DNA of 64,000 bases from Mycoplasmataceae bacterium (lineage in GTDB: Bacteria; Bacillota_I; Bacilli_A; Mycoplasmatales; Mycoplasmoidaceae). This document shows positions 42,551 through 50,582 of the stretch, in pieces; the first letter of the stretch is position 1; the number at the start of each line of letters is the position of its first letter. Where the stretch lies: contig JAITDP010000007.1 of assembly GCA_031282505.1 (NCBI GenBank), forward strand, positions 1-64,000. The letters are read 5' to 3'. The notes under the pieces were generated by a model, which saw only the letters and a program-made list of their open reading frames with translations, did no database searches and had not been told where the DNA came from. A program made the position numbers and the translations under genes.

Positions 42551-42600
42551 CAGGAGCCGGGAAGTTTATGTTCCTCAGGTGCCGGGAAGTTTATGGACTC
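42551..42600. repeat. 25-bp tandem duplication at the end of the BspA-like gene
   Basis: Two units, each with GCCGGGAAGTTTATG, starting at 42551 and 42576. The gene stop codon lies in the unit nearer cmk. The 25-base period shifts the frame, so the duplication has added a few residues to the protein end. Confidence 0.8.
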
Positions 42601-44429
42601 TTTTAAAAAGTTCTAACATACTAGCCGCAGATAAGGTTCCTTGCACTTTAATCTTTCCGCTTGCAGCGACATTTTGAAATATATAACTATATCCATCTGA
42701 CGTAGTAGGTCAATTCGGATAACTTTGAAATGAACTCATTGTTATAGAATTTAAGGATGAGCAATTTTGAAATGCATAAGTGCCTACATTGTTGCCAACA
42801 TTCGAACATAATGTGATGCTTGATAACTTGCTACAACTATAAAATGCATGCTCTCCAATCTTTTGTAATCATAATAGTTTTTCTCATTCTAACGTTCCCA
42901 AGCTTGAGCAATTTGCAAAGCAATAGCTACCAATTTCTTTCAAATTAGTAATACTAGTATTAAAAATTATTGATGTAATTTTACTGCATGCATAAAATGA
43001 TGATTCTCCAATATACACAACAGATGTAGGAATCGATAAAGTCCCTTGAAACGAGTTGGTATCATAGTAAAAAGCTTGGTCAGCAATTATTTTTGTTCCA
43101 GGTTGTATAGTAACATTGTTTGACAAATCCGTACCAGTTGATAGTATATTTCTATATGATCCCAAACAATAGTATGAATTTGTATTTGTATTTCTAATAT
43201 AGTAGCAAAAATACGAGTCTTTAGAAATTTTTTTATCAATTCCTCATGAAGTTGCAAGTAACCCAACACAATTAAAAAAAAGCATTTTGTTTAATGCTTG
43301 TAAGTCCTGTGCCTATAGTCAAGTTGCCATCAAAACCACATGAATAAAATGCATTGTATTCAATTGATGTAACATTATCAGGAATATTTAAATCACCAAC
43401 AATGCTTGTGCAATTTGCAAAAAGATTTTGACTAATTTTTGTAATTCCTGTACCAATTGTAAGTCCTGTTAATCTCCCACAATTTTTAAATGCACGGTCT
43501 CCAAGTTGCGTAACACTATTTGGGATATTTAGTTCACCTGTTATAAGATTACAATTTTCAAAAGCAGAGGTTCCGATTGATGTTACAGTGTTTGGAATAT
43601 TTAAGACATCAGCTATGCTATTACAGCTTTCAAAAGCACAAGAACCAATTGACGTAACGTTGTTACCAATTGATGATAGTCCGGTTAAATTACGGCAACT
43701 TTGAAATGCATAACTTTCAATTGTTGTAATTGTATTAGGAATATTTAATGAGCCAGTTAACCCAATGCAATTCTTAAAAGCATTTGATGATATTTTTGTT
43801 AGTGGAACTCATATACCAGCACCTGATGATCATATGCTTGAAGGAATTGATAAATTACTTGCTACATAAGATTGACTTGATGTGATATAGCAACTTGTTG
43901 GGTTGGTTGAATTATTAAACTCTACTGTAACCGATCCAGATATCATACCATACCAATTAGAACCATTAGCAGTTCCATGTAGTGCAGCATCACTTGATGC
44001 ATAAATATATCCAACATTGCTTGCAAGATATACATCATTATTATGAACATCAACAATAGTTGCATCAACTTTAAAAGAGAAAGATGAACCAAAAGATGGT
44101 AATGAAGACATGTTGTAATAACCAGGATCAAATTTTATGCTTGTGTTGTTGGTTATATTAATGCTTGAATGCATTAACCCTTCACTATATTCTGAGATTG
44201 TACAACTAATGTTGTAATCAGAAGGAGTGATTGGTTCATTGTTTAATAAAACATCAATATTGTTTGTAATAAGAGAAGCAGAATTTTGAATTATGATATC
44301 ACAATTTCCTAAAGAAAATTCTTTTTGTTTGCCTTGATTATTTCCTCCATCACATTGATTTAATAATAAAAAAGGCATAAGACAAATAGGCAATGACAAC
44401 ATTACCAAAAGGCTCGACTTGCACCTCAT
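42566..44429 (-). pseudogene. BspA-like leucine-rich-repeat lipoprotein, out of frame at a T8 tract
   Basis: A surface lipoprotein gene of about 620 codons. The signal peptide ends FLLLNQC (Cys26). Residues 27-190 form a unique N-terminal domain, followed by about 15 LRR_5 repeats of the type IPNSVTxIGxxAFxxCxxLTG. Reading from the ATG hits TAA at 43272-43274, right after eight T (eight A on the plus strand, 43274-43281). Removing one T restores an open frame to the stop at 42566, including KKIS...YYCLGSYRN and more repeats. So it is either phase-off or newly broken. It is closely related to the intact gene at 48159-50582. TATAAT lies 9 bases before the start. Confidence 0.8.
43274..43281 (-). 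repeat. Homopolymer T8 (A8 on plus strand) at the frameshift of the BspA-like gene
   Basis: Eight identical bases at the point where the LRR reading frame is lost. Seven would keep the family-like reading AFFNC. Confidence 0.9.
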
Positions 44430-45937: not shown

Positions 45938-46013
45938 TGGCGCGCTAGGTAGGAGTCGAACCCACAACCTCTTGGTTCGTAGCCAAGTGCTCTATCCATT
46001 GAGCTACTAGCGC
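45938..46013 (-). tRNA. tRNA-Arg(ACG)
   Basis: A 76-base tRNA with acceptor stem GCGCTAG/CTAGCGC, G discriminator and encoded CCA. The anticodon loop CTACGAA gives ACG (A34 usually becomes inosine) and decodes CGN. The D arm is nearly identical to that of tRNA-Arg(CCU) at 1874. Confidence 0.96.
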
Positions 46014-46014
46014 A

Positions 46015-46089
46015 TGGAGGTACTGACTGGATTTGAACCAGCGAATACGAAGGTTGCAGCTTCGGACCTTACCACTTGGCTACAGTACC
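46015..46089 (-). tRNA. tRNA-Cys(GCA)
   Basis: A 75-base tRNA with acceptor stem GGTACTG/CAGTACC, T discriminator and encoded CCA. The anticodon loop CTGCAAC gives GCA. One base separates it from tRNA-Arg(ACG). It begins 20 bases after the nrdD stop codon, so the tRNAs may be read from the nrdD transcript. Confidence 0.96.
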
Positions 46090-46109
46090 ACTATGATTAA
46101 TTATATTAT

Positions 46110-48104
46110 TTACTTAGATAATAATTTCTTACTATTTTTAATAGTATTTTGTGTCATTCTTTTAGCGCAATCCAAGCAATAACGAATGTGGAAATTGAAT
46201 CCTAAATATGAAATATTTGTTTTTTCATAAGCGTTACGAACAATACGTTCAATAATTTCAGCACTTGGGTAATCATCAAACTCAATATATGAAATATGAC
46301 CAGCATTACATAGTTTATGATAAGGAGCTTCGATTTCTATTTTTTTAGCGTATGAAATTGGGAAATCAACAGGAACATGGAATGAGTTAGTATAAAACTT
46401 CTTTGAAGTTACTCAATCAATATCACCTAAATATTTTTCATCAAGTTTTGTAAATTTATCACTTAGTCCTTCAGCTGGCGTTGCATAGCAAGAGAAGTTT
46501 AGTTTATATTTGTTTTTAAAATCATCAAGGCGACTTCTCAAATGAGAAACAATTTTAATTCCTAATTTTTGTGAAGTAGCACTTTCACCATGATGTTTTC
46601 CTGTCAAAACTTTTAATGTTTCAGCAAGCCCAATAAAACCAATACCAAATGAACCTTGTTTTAAAATTGGCTCAATTGAATCATTAAGATCTAATTTTTC
46701 AGATCCTTTCATAATTTTTTGTCCCGCAACAAAAGGTAAGTCTTTGACTTTTAGTTGTTTAACAACACTATAACGGTGCATTAGTTGTTCACGACATTCT
46801 TCTATTTTTTCATCAAATAATTTAAAGAATGTTTTTATGTTTCCTTTTGAATTGATTGCAATTCTGACTAAATTTAATGTAACAGGAAATATATTTCCTC
46901 TACCATCTGTACCAGGTTTACCATTGACGTTTGACAAAATATAAGTACGGCAACCCATAGTTGCGGGATAAACTCCTTTGTCAAAATATTCTTTATTAAA
47001 GTCAGCGTCCATGTTCATGAATGTAGGGTTCATTCTTTGACTAGCTACATATGTAGCAATTTTAAATAGGTAATAATATTTATCTTTTGGATCACGGTTG
47101 TGTCCTTTTTTAATACGGAAGATAATGTTTGGGAATATTGGTTGTTCTCCATTTCCCATACCTTTCATATATTCTTCTAATAATGCTTGACACACCATCG
47201 CAGCTTCTGGTGTATCGCAAATACCTACATTAATAGAAGAAAAAGGAACTTGTGCACCAGCACGACTGTGCATAGTGTTTAAGTTATAAATAACTTTTTG
47301 CATTGATTGTTTAACTCTTTTAATTAATATTCTTTCAGCAATTTCATTGATCTCATTTTTAGGAACATTATGGTTTTCAAGATCTTTTTTAATTTCAATT
47401 CTTGTTAAACGAACAAATGGTGCCATGTCATTATCAAAATTAGGATGTGCTTGCCCTCCGAACATATCATTTTGTGATGATTGCATTAAAATGCAACTCA
47501 AGTCAGCAGCAGTTTCAATTCTTTTAGCAGGATTAATCATACCATACCCTGTATTGAATCCTTCAGATAATAATTTATAAGTTGGAAGATGCAAACAATT
47601 AACAGTTAAATTGTATGAATCAAGATCATGAATATAGTAGTCACCGTTTTCATGAGCCTTAGCCATTTTTTGTGGCAATAATTTTCCCAGAACAAATCAT
47701 TTATTTGCTTCTGACGCTATACGTAGTAACTTAGCAGAGAAATTGTTACCAACATTTGCATTATCTCTGTCAGTCTCGATGCCAATTTTTTCAATTGTTT
47801 TAACAACAGTTAATTTTGTTTCTCTTACACGAGTTCTTTCTTTTCTATATTCATCATATTGTTTTGCAAGCAAAGCAAATTTATGTTTTTTTAATGTATT
47901 AACTACACAATCTTGAATAGTTTCAACATCCACAATTCCATCAACATAGTTGGATTCTAAATATTTAACAACATCATTGGTTACTTTTTTTATTTCGTTA
48001 TAAGTAATTTTAGCTCCATGATGTTCAGCAGCTGACAAAATTGCATCAACTATTTTTAAAGGTTCAAATTTTTTACTTCGACCATCTCTCTTAATAACTT
48101 TCAT
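46110..48104 (-). CDS. nrdD: Class III (anaerobic) ribonucleoside-triphosphate reductase, lacking C-terminal radical segment
   Basis: NrdD makes deoxynucleotides without oxygen, using a glycyl radical. The 664-residue protein has an N-terminal ATP cone (VIKRDGRSKKFEPLKI), YIHDLDSYNLTVNCLHL, QSSQNDMFGGQAHPNFD, MNPTFMNMDADFNKEYF and TMGCRTY with the likely thiyl cysteine. Homologues close with two zinc CxxC pairs and then a glycyl-radical motif like RVTGYL. Here only the first pair is present (Cys643, Cys646), and the protein stops 18 residues later. The stop is followed by tRNA-Cys after 20 bases, so no room exists for the missing part. No nrdG activase gene is in the window. Confidence 0.88.
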
Positions 48105-48158: not shown

Positions 48159-50582
48159 GTGAAATGTAAAACTAAACTTTTGGCATTATTGTCATCTCCT
48201 ATCTTACTTGGGGGGGGCTTAAGTCCTCTTTTATTTTTAAATCAATGTGGTAATTCACCAGATGATGACAATAGCCCATCTAATTATGTTGGGGACGATA
48301 CAGGCAGTGATTGAAAGGGACATACTGACGACACTGTTCTTACAATTTCAATAGATAATGACCATGCATCTATAACTAGCGCCTCCTCATATGTAGCTGA
48401 AAACCTGATAATTCCTGATTGAATTAAATCCAATGGCAGGGTTTTTCCGTTGACAAATATAATTGAAGGCGCCTTTTACAATTGTCAACATTTAACTGGA
48501 GAACTCATTATTGGTAATAAAGTAACAACTATAGGCCATTCTGCTTTTTGTAACTGCAGTTTAGACGGTGTTATTATGGGCAATAATGTTTTTAACATAT
48601 TATCTTCTGTATTTTATGGTTGTGAAAATCTTATAACTTCTTCACCTTCAAATCAGTATGTTAATAACAAAATATCATGTTCTAATGATGATATATATTA
48701 TCTTAGGAATGATGATAAATATTACTGTTTTGGATCATATGGAAATGTTTGTGATTCAGGTGATGAACCTAGTGGACAATTAACCCTGCTTTCTGGAACC
48801 AAGGTCATTTGTGGATGTTCATTTTATAGTTGTGAAAATTTAACTGGTGTTTTGAATATTCCAAGCAGTGTTATTGGTATTGCAAGTAGGGCTTTTGATA
48901 CTTGTACAACTCTAAGTGGGGCGTTGAATATTCCTAATGGTGTGAAGTATATTGGTATGTATTGTTTTAATTTATGTTCTGGATTTAATGGCAATTTGAC
49001 TATTCCAAGTAGTGTGACGAATATTGATGATGGTGCATTTAATGGGTGTTATGGTTTGACTGGTGATTTGAATATTCCAAGTAGTGTGACAAATATTGGG
49101 AATAGTACATTTGATGGGTGTTGTAGTTTGACTGGTGATTTGACTATTCCTAATAGTGTGACCAATATAGGAGAAGGTGCATTTAGAAATTGTGTTGGAT
49201 TTATTTCTACTGCTTCATATGCTGACAAAAAAATATCATGTAGTACTGATAATGTATATTACATTATGAATGGCAATAAATATTATTGTTTGGGAGATTG
49301 TAAAAATGTTCTTCCCGATGGCCAAGCTATACCAGCAAATACAGAATTAACATTGCGTTCTGGAACTATTCTTATTGGAAAAGCTGCTTTTAGTAGTTGC
49401 AGTGAATTAGTTGGAAATTTAAACATTCCAGATACGATTGTAGACATTCCATATTATGCATTTTATAGTTGCCAAAATTTAACTGGTACTTTAACTATTC
49501 CTAATACTGTGACAAGTATTGGGAATGATGCTTTTTGTGCATGTAAAAAACTAACTGGAAGTTTAACTATCCATAACAGTGTTGTTGAAATAGGAGATAA
49601 TTCGTTCAAACAATGTGGATTCACAGGAAATTTGTCTATTGGGAATAATGTTAAAAGTATTGGGGAGCATGCGTTTGAGGAGTGTTTTAATTTTATTGGT
49701 GATTTGAATATTCCAAGTAGTGTTGTTGAAATAGGAGATAATTCGTTCACACGATGTGGATTCACAGGAAATTTGTCTATTGGGAATAATGTTAAAAGTA
49801 TTGGGTGGCATGCATTTGCGGAGTGTTCTAATTTTATTGGTGATTTGAATATTCCAAGTAGTGTTGTTGAAATAGGAGATAATTCGTTCAAACAATGTGG
49901 ATTCACAGGAAATTTGTCTATTGGGAATAATGTTAAAAGTATTGGGGAGCATGCGTTTGAGGAGTGTTCTAATTTTATTGGTGATTTGAATATTCCAAGT
50001 AGTGTGACGAATATTGATGGTGGTGCATTTTATAATTGTAGTGGATTTATTTCTGCTACTGCATATGCAGACAAAAAAATATCATGTAGTAGTGATAATG
50101 TATATTACATTAAAAATGATGAAAATTATTACTGTTTGGGATCAGTTGAAAATGTTTATGAATCAAGTGACAAACCTAGTGGACAATTAACACTGCTTCC
50201 TGAAACCAAGGTCATTTGTGGGGATTCATTTTATAATTGTAGTGATTTGACTGGTGATTTGACTATTCCAAGTAGTGTGACGAATATTGGAGAAAATGCA
50301 TTTAGTGAGTGTGTTGGCATAGCTACAGTTAATATTAGTGGCAGTCTTGAAGATATTTATCCTTATGCTTTTTATTCTTGTAGTAACCTTTCTCATATAA
50401 CTTTAACAAATTTTTCTGGGCGACCAAGTTGAAACTGTAATGAAGAATGAACGGTTTTTTCAGATGTTAGTGCTTCAGGAACTATAAGCGTTAGCGGTGG
50501 CTGAGATGCTAGTGATGCATTAAATTTTTTTATAAATAATTTAGGTTTGCCAAGTTCAGGTTGAAATGCTAATATTTTATAA
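48159..50582 (+). CDS. BspA-like leucine-rich-repeat surface lipoprotein
   Basis: An 807-residue lipoprotein. GTG starts the signal peptide, which ends LLFLNQC (Cys30) and contains Gly18-Gly20 encoded by an 8-base G tract (48210-48217). After a short acidic linker come about 25 LRR_5 repeats (pattern IPSSVTNIGxxAFxxCxxLTG), broken three times by a non-LRR block with KKISC...YYxxN...YYCxG. BspA-type proteins bind host matrix proteins or other cells. Three 141-bp tandem repeats lie at 49581-50003. TGA codons near both ends are Trp. The end (LNFFINNLGLPSSGW) resembles that of the broken paralogue at 42566. The only in-frame alternative start would lose the signal peptide. Confidence 0.88.
48210..48217 (+). 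repeat. Homopolymer G8 in signal peptide of the BspA-like lipoprotein
   Basis: Eight G at the same codons as the G tracts of the lipoproteins at 298 and 1193. The gene is in frame as read. Confidence 0.9.
49581..50003 (+). repeat. Three 141-bp tandem repeats inside the BspA-like gene
   Basis: Units start at 49581, 49722 and 49863. Each encodes 47 residues (two LRR units) and the copies differ at only a few bases. Units 1 and 3 are closest; unit 2 differs at ACACGATG and GGGTGGCATGC. The period is a multiple of three, so gain or loss of a unit keeps the frame. Confidence 0.93.

Follow-up and report, generated by a model that had tools for sequence, protein, structure and literature searches.

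The window analysed here, a stretch of 64,000 nucleotides from a Mycoplasmataceae bacterium (positions 1 to 64,000, forward strand, of contig JAITDP010000007.1 in assembly GCA_031282505.1), carries an nrdD gene for a class III (anaerobic) ribonucleotide reductase without the C-terminal glycyl-radical tail. Two tRNA genes follow it (Table 1). The genome to which the window belongs, designated G000, comprises 501,284 bases in 10 contigs and is 83% complete; of the named relatives found, a Mycoplasmataceae metagenome bin comes nearest, at 78% identity. The genome uses genetic code 4, and because TGA encodes tryptophan, nrdD appears in pieces in a list of open reading frames (ORFs) made with table 11. 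Read with code 4, the gene is a single ORF of 664 amino acids.

The match to PF13597 spans profile positions 1-517 of 562 (E 2e-164), covering the catalytic domain and fold of a class III enzyme, and TIGR02487 aligns over positions 2-534 of 581; the missing part is therefore the C-terminal tail alone. An ATP-cone is recognised by PF03477 (E 1.9e-18). The chain ends in HIRYCLDC-AKRMTQNTIKNSKKLLSK-TAA, where Cys646 is the last zinc-type cysteine. Alignment with an intact clostridial NrdD, about 60% identical, locates the break after the first and before the second CxxC pair of the zinc site; the second pair and the glycyl-radical loop, which an NrdD carries on the same chain, are not on this one. 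These results bear out a preliminary description of the locus, according to which the protein stops 18 residues past the first zinc CxxC (in one code-4 ORF), lacks the second CxxC and the glycyl-radical motif (the PF13597 match ends at 517), and keeps the thiyl cysteine and other core motifs (Cys385 is invariant in 45 sequences, and the ATP-cone and barrel are present). ARAGORN likewise confirmed a tRNA-Cys gene 20 bases past the stop, a distance that leaves no space for an intein, an intron half or a lost tail. The AlphaFold2 model of the chain has a mean pLDDT of 90, and its best Foldseek match is the NrdD of Prevotella copri (E 2.4e-51).

A stand-alone glycyl-radical gene

The preliminary description had offered two explanations for the short chain, a dead enzyme or a radical segment supplied by a separate small protein, and had proposed searching the genome for nrdG and for a small ORF with a CxxC and a radical motif. 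Both genes were found in G000. The small ORF, on contig C4, encodes a protein of 71 amino acids, MEKISNQIATKVTLLRASDTVCPVCGSRNIQGISRVTGYMSLDERFGSGKVAERKKRIDHNGGHEHNYHTK, which we name NrdD-GRD; it holds the second zinc pair, Cys22 and Cys25, and the glycyl-radical motif SRVTGYMSLDERFG with Gly38. The protein aligns to PF13597 positions 522-562, that is, to the part that the window NrdD is without, and among glycyl-radical families it matches PF13597 and the NrdD models (TIGR02487) only, not PF01228. A search with PF13597 only overlooked this ORF in G000 and in several relatives; its detection required a profile built from the relatives' stand-alone ORFs (A1), which matches it with an E value of 9.1e-33. 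Regular expressions run over the window and the relatives' nrdG neighbourhoods gave no relevant small ORF, because the small gene is located elsewhere. In G000 its neighbours are a FakA-like gene on one side and a DHH-family gene on the other, and it starts 14 bases past its upstream gene. The nrdG gene, on contig C1, encodes the radical-SAM CxxxCxxC motif and scores over the cut-off of TIGR02491 (E 2.2e-39), as befits the cognate activase.

The structure paper on P. copri NrdD specifies where the barrel and the glycyl-radical domain touch each other; one such element, an NxN flap, contacts the substrate as well (PMC11226230). By alignment, the catalytic and interface residues defined there are on the expected chains: N115/N117, C385, N404 and E545 on the large one, G38, Y39 and R45 on the small one. 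Asn404, in place of a second active-site cysteine, assigns the enzyme to the NrdD1 formate subclass, and a putative source of formate is present, G000 having a gene for pyruvate formate-lyase (PFL). Each protein also has two of the zinc-ligand cysteines, conserved as YCxxC in 38/38 large chains and CPxCG in 30/30 small ones. Since the chain breaks between the two CxxC pairs, the Cys4 zinc site is probably built across both proteins.

Distribution and linkage of the two genes

In a first survey, a PF13597 search over 99 relatives, most genomes of the window's genus showed the same shortened NrdD and a second short match (profile positions of about 515-562) in an ORF of 62-98 amino acids. Thirty of the small ORFs were read and aligned. 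CPxCG is invariant among them, followed by [ST]R[VI]TGY and then by ERF and GK-type residues; the glycine, tyrosine and arginine of the radical loop are kept. Comparison of the nrdD 3′ ends, also proposed in the preliminary description, revealed that all 38 shortened NrdDs examined (the window's and 37 from relatives) stop 2-29 variable residues past the same YCxxC, one conserved place across three genera. This conservation rules out a frameshift or assembly error as the cause of the short NrdD. Sequencing error, which the preliminary description had named as a way in which its case could fail, is discounted likewise, the truncation being shared by the relatives.

Of the 36 genomes of the genus (G000 included), 34 yielded the small ORF; 33 of these yielded the shortened large chain as well, and it was seen in no others. 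The thirty-fourth, G001, has the small ORF, nrdG and another, intact NrdD, with no shortened NrdD seen; neither half was detected in G002 and G027. Both halves are present in 6/6 and 2/2 genomes of two further genera of the family. In total, 41 genomes have both, and every genome found with a shortened NrdD has the small ORF. Among the matches listed from 320 genomes of the order and from samples of 395 (class) and 392 (phylum), strong stand-alone matches are confined to the three genera; bar weak cases, the others listed are long NrdD frames or frames cut by TGA-coded tryptophan.

Where the two halves lie on one contig, they are always on the same strand (24/24) and mostly less than 1 kb apart (19/24). 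The order is usually nrdD-nrdG-small, and nrdD-small-nrdG in genus g8. In G042, a member of g8, the small ORF begins 11 bases past the nrdD stop and has its own ribosome-binding site (AAAGGAG); in G051, of the same genus, it is in frame with nrdD, with one TAA between. A near relative of the window's species, G014, retains the nrdD-nrdG-small order; the scattered arrangement in G000 is therefore probably derived.

Pairwise ratios of non-synonymous to synonymous substitution rates (dN/dS) range from 0.02 to 0.22 for both halves, indicating purifying selection. The protein distances of the two halves correlate (r = 0.92, 136 pairs), partly reflecting shared ancestry. None of the 36 genus genomes gave a match to PF02867 (class I/II large chain) or PF00268 (class I small chain), families that the same searches detected in controls and in many other mycoplasmas. 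The genomes are incomplete, yet it is unlikely that such a reductase was overlooked in all 36. A second, divergent and intact NrdD occurs at G001:C29 (beside the small ORF), G029:C2, G034:C9 and G042:C1 (beside the split pair).

A tree built from 55 NrdDs unites 35 of the split chains from the window's family (support 82/91) and places them beside intact clostridial and viral NrdDs. The split chains of three genomes of the window's genus, G004, G016 and G018, are on a long branch of unsure placement. The pairs in question (loci L072, L082 and L077, respectively) are very divergent, and the small ORFs of G004 and G016, the two aligned, have an insert of about 15 residues past the radical loop.

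A proposed two-protein class III reductase

We consider it very probable that the window NrdD is the larger partner in a class III ribonucleotide reductase made of two proteins, in which the 71-amino-acid protein bears the radical. What the sequences provide is the presence of both halves, their co-occurrence, purifying selection on both, linkage in relatives and the failure to find another reductase; from these we infer physical assembly, a shared zinc site, radical formation and catalysis. The 664-amino-acid NrdD would contribute nucleotide binding, the thiyl cysteine Cys385 and the first two zinc ligands, and the small protein the other two ligands and the glycyl-radical site. The two would dock by completing one common Cys4 zinc site, so that the glycine loop of the small protein could enter the barrel and place Gly38 beside Cys385. 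NrdG would install the radical on the small protein, either free or docked, and the radical would then move on to Cys385 for formate-dependent reduction of NTPs. In known enzymes the glycyl-radical domain has to leave the barrel in a flipping motion to reach NrdG, and then move back in (PMC12662201); in the best reading of our data, this movable part is, in the present lineage, a separate protein. The small protein looks like an obligatory NrdD subunit. Of the two alternatives in the preliminary description, the radical segment on a separate protein is the one that our results support.

Reduced genomes of host-associated mycoplasmas often lose biosynthesis. With its 501 kb, G000 is of this type, and G002 and G027 show neither nrdD nor the small ORF, so the gene might be decaying or dead, with deoxyribonucleosides taken up or salvaged and the small ORF a remnant. 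The low dN/dS of both halves, the invariant catalytic residues, the retention of nrdG and the single conserved stop place across three genera make this very unlikely; nor is there an NrdEF that could serve as replacement. The preliminary description's dead enzyme, and its combination of NrdEF elsewhere with nrdD decay in relatives, thus gain no support from the 36 genomes of the genus. Equally improbable is a single continuous protein arising by read-through, programmed frameshift, trans-splicing or an intein. The shared frame and lone TAA of G051 would suit it, but in its congener G042 the small ORF has its own ribosome-binding site, while in most genomes nrdG or a longer stretch of chromosome intervenes; in G000, the 20 bases up to tRNA-Cys and the 14 bases upstream of the small ORF leave no space for intron or intein halves. 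Intein, intron and trans-splicing are ruled out on this ground.

Two further alternatives concern the role of the small protein, and we give each a still slighter chance. In size and arrangement it resembles YfiD (GrcA), and it might accordingly be a mender of oxygen-cut PFL; G000 has a PFL, and PFL is itself split in most of the genus. Against this, the protein matches NrdD models rather than PF01228, bears the NrdD zinc pair and is encoded near nrdD and nrdG in relatives, the split PFLs are served by a different, PFL-type ORF, and the PFL of G000 is intact, with its own RVSGYAVNF. That PFL is whole in G000 and in seven relatives speaks against a role in PFL for the NrdD-type small ORF. Alternatively, the large chain could work without a glycyl radical, from another radical source, leaving the small protein a different role. 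Against this, nrdG has been retained and shows linkage with both genes, the radical-loop residues Gly, Tyr and Arg persist in the small ORFs, and an NrdB/F radical subunit was not found in the 36 genus genomes.

Several points weigh against the two-protein enzyme. The genomes are metagenome bins, and in G000 the three genes are on three different contigs, so that the linkage of C6, C4 and C1 rests on binning, although a single contig holds the genes in many relatives. The mirror-tree correlation is in part shared species history. Lastly, one result in favour is weakened: the G051 pair with its stop read through folds as NrdD throughout (top match 8p2s_B, the P. copri enzyme; TM 0.85 over 665 columns), but this is partly circular, intact homologues being in its alignment, and the tail is of moderate confidence (pLDDT blocks of about 50-73).

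The nearest precedents for a two-protein class III enzyme are NrdJa/NrdJb, a class II reductase that is split, and YfiD, a spare part for PFL. Intact NrdD1 enzymes (P. copri, Clostridium, phage T4) share the ATP-cone, barrel, thiyl cysteine, Asn-for-Cys replacement, four predicted zinc-ligand cysteines, glycyl motif and NrdG; those known are one chain, whereas in the window's lineage the break falls within the zinc site and the radical tail is a separate gene. NrdJa/NrdJb of Pseudomonas aeruginosa also pairs a large catalytic with a small C-terminal protein, both needed (PMC4520616), but it is B12-dependent, its small part does thiol exchange and carries no radical, and its genes form one operon; G000 has no match to PF02867. 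YfiD/GrcA and Y06I of phage T4 likewise are stand-alone glycyl-radical domains for a chain without one (PMC8683613). They differ in being PFL-type, with no NrdD zinc pair, and in mending an oxygen-cut PFL whose own domain is encoded; in the window's system no intact partner tail is encoded. The parallel with YfiD drawn in the preliminary description therefore holds as regards a separate part, and fails in that YfiD repairs an otherwise complete PFL whereas the present protein looks obligatory. Class I enzymes (NrdAB/NrdEF) also combine a catalytic with a separate radical-bearing subunit; there, a ferritin-like metal protein bears the radical, and it has no relation to the small glycyl-radical protein.

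We found no description of a split class III reductase or of a stand-alone NrdD radical domain in the literature, in agreement with the preliminary description's view of such an enzyme as new; coverage of subscription journals was poor and bioRxiv was not covered, so that a report we have not seen is possible. If the proposal is true, a group of uncultured gut mycoplasmas keeps the radical-bearing part of its anaerobic DNA-precursor enzyme on a tiny gene of its own elsewhere in the genome. Whether dATP works by making the glycyl-radical domain looser is a point on which the P. copri and S. thermophilus structures conflict (PMC11226230, PMC12662201). Were this domain a protein by itself, its binding could be titrated against ATP and dATP, making the dispute directly testable, and one could ask whether NrdG requires the barrel at all.

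Other detached glycyl-radical domains and neighbouring features

Family f20, of the same class (Bacilli), provides a second case. Among its 145 genomes, 60 of 78 tail matches are in stand-alone frames of at most 80 amino acids and 17 of 78 in frames of at least 700. Fourteen loci from 13 genomes were read. A glycyl-radical ORF of 52-76 amino acids lies downstream of an NrdD that ends past the zinc domain; it begins 10-35 bases past the nrdD stop in 12 genomes, and in L192 its first ATG would overlap nrdD. All three relative frames are seen, most loci have a purine-rich ribosome-binding site, and nrdG is usually next. Both CxxC-like pairs are on the large chain, so that the break is at another position than in the window's family; an independent split of the class III reductase is therefore most likely. 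The f20 chains are placed elsewhere in the tree, whose well-supported branches require the split label to change at least twice.

A divided PFL is likewise encoded in 22 genomes of the window's genus and in G061, from another family. Its RVSGYA part occupies a short ORF of its own, close to the PFL gene or on a different contig, and 80-112 amino acids long in most (the frame in L162 is longer). The PFL chain, where matched, covers PF01228 positions 1 to about 51. The split of PFL hints at a wider tendency for glycyl-radical domains to become detached. More tentatively, and with the odds somewhat against it, the window's lineage might use exchangeable glycyl-radical cartridges, for NrdD wherever present and for PFL in most genomes. 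The zinc site between NrdD and its small partner would be a docking clamp, an oxygen-cut subunit could be cheaply swapped and the radical installed on the free small protein, and the second Bacilli family would have reached the same solution independently.

Viral contigs were also searched. A pattern search found no relative of the window NrdD among them; of seven profile matches, six are intact NrdD tails and one is a stand-alone ORF. Phage records matched by tblastn with the small protein are, where annotated, mostly named NrdD. The stand-alone NrdD-type ORF, on a phage-like contig (IMG/VR 3300001598_000013; L141, also L184), has neighbours that resemble tail and replication genes; the 20 kb that were read show no NrdD, and the ORF may be a phage-borne radical part. 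In genome G653, a 124-amino-acid ORF with a different N-terminus has an NrdD-type radical loop at its end (FERIRRITGYLVGTTDRFNDGK); the genome's other NrdD tail lies in a 778-amino-acid frame. This ORF is possibly a YfiD-like spare part for NrdD.

Table 1. Locations of the features discussed (plain numbers are window positions; other locations are given by contig or locus).
Feature	Location	Strand	Basis
nrdD large chain: ATP-cone, barrel and first zinc half, without glycyl-radical tail	46110..48104	-	ORF (code 4), PF13597, PF03477
ATP-cone, residues 1-91	47832..48104	-	PF03477
Asn115-Ala-Asn117, "NxN flap"	47754..47762	-	N115, A116, N117 invariant in 45 sequences
Cys385, predicted thiyl-radical cysteine (ATMGCRTY)	46950..46952	-	Invariant in 45 sequences; aligned with P. 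copri Cys416
Asn404, in place of second active-site cysteine (NrdD1 formate type)	46893..46895	-	Invariant; aligned with P. copri Asn435
Cys643-x-x-Cys646, first half of zinc site	46167..46178	-	YCxxC in 38/38 shortened NrdDs
TAA stop between zinc-site halves	46110..46112	-	Alignment with intact clostridial NrdD
tRNA-Cys(gca), starts 20 bases past nrdD stop	46015..46089	-	ARAGORN
tRNA-Arg(acg), adjoins tRNA-Cys	45938..46013	-	ARAGORN
BspA-type gene	42566-44429	-	PF13306
BspA-type gene	48159-50582	+	PF13306
NrdD-GRD ORF, G000	C4:4167-4382	-	Profile A1 match at C4:4176-4361
nrdG, G000	C1:24225-24758		TIGR02491
PFL, whole, G000	L145 610-2883		
Split-PFL loci (L162-L183: 21 of the window's genus, and L163 from G061)	L162-L183; G033:C16:190810-191257		
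f20 loci read (L185 repeats the L149 locus)	L149 729-3199; L148 585-3096; L185-L196		
Stand-alone ORF, phage-like contig	L141 2986-3153		
124-amino-acid ORF, G653	L150 2722-3093		

On both sides of the nrdD/pheS region, the window encodes BspA-type leucine-rich-repeat proteins, likely lipoprotein-like surface proteins; the minus-strand gene is broken over two overlapping frames.
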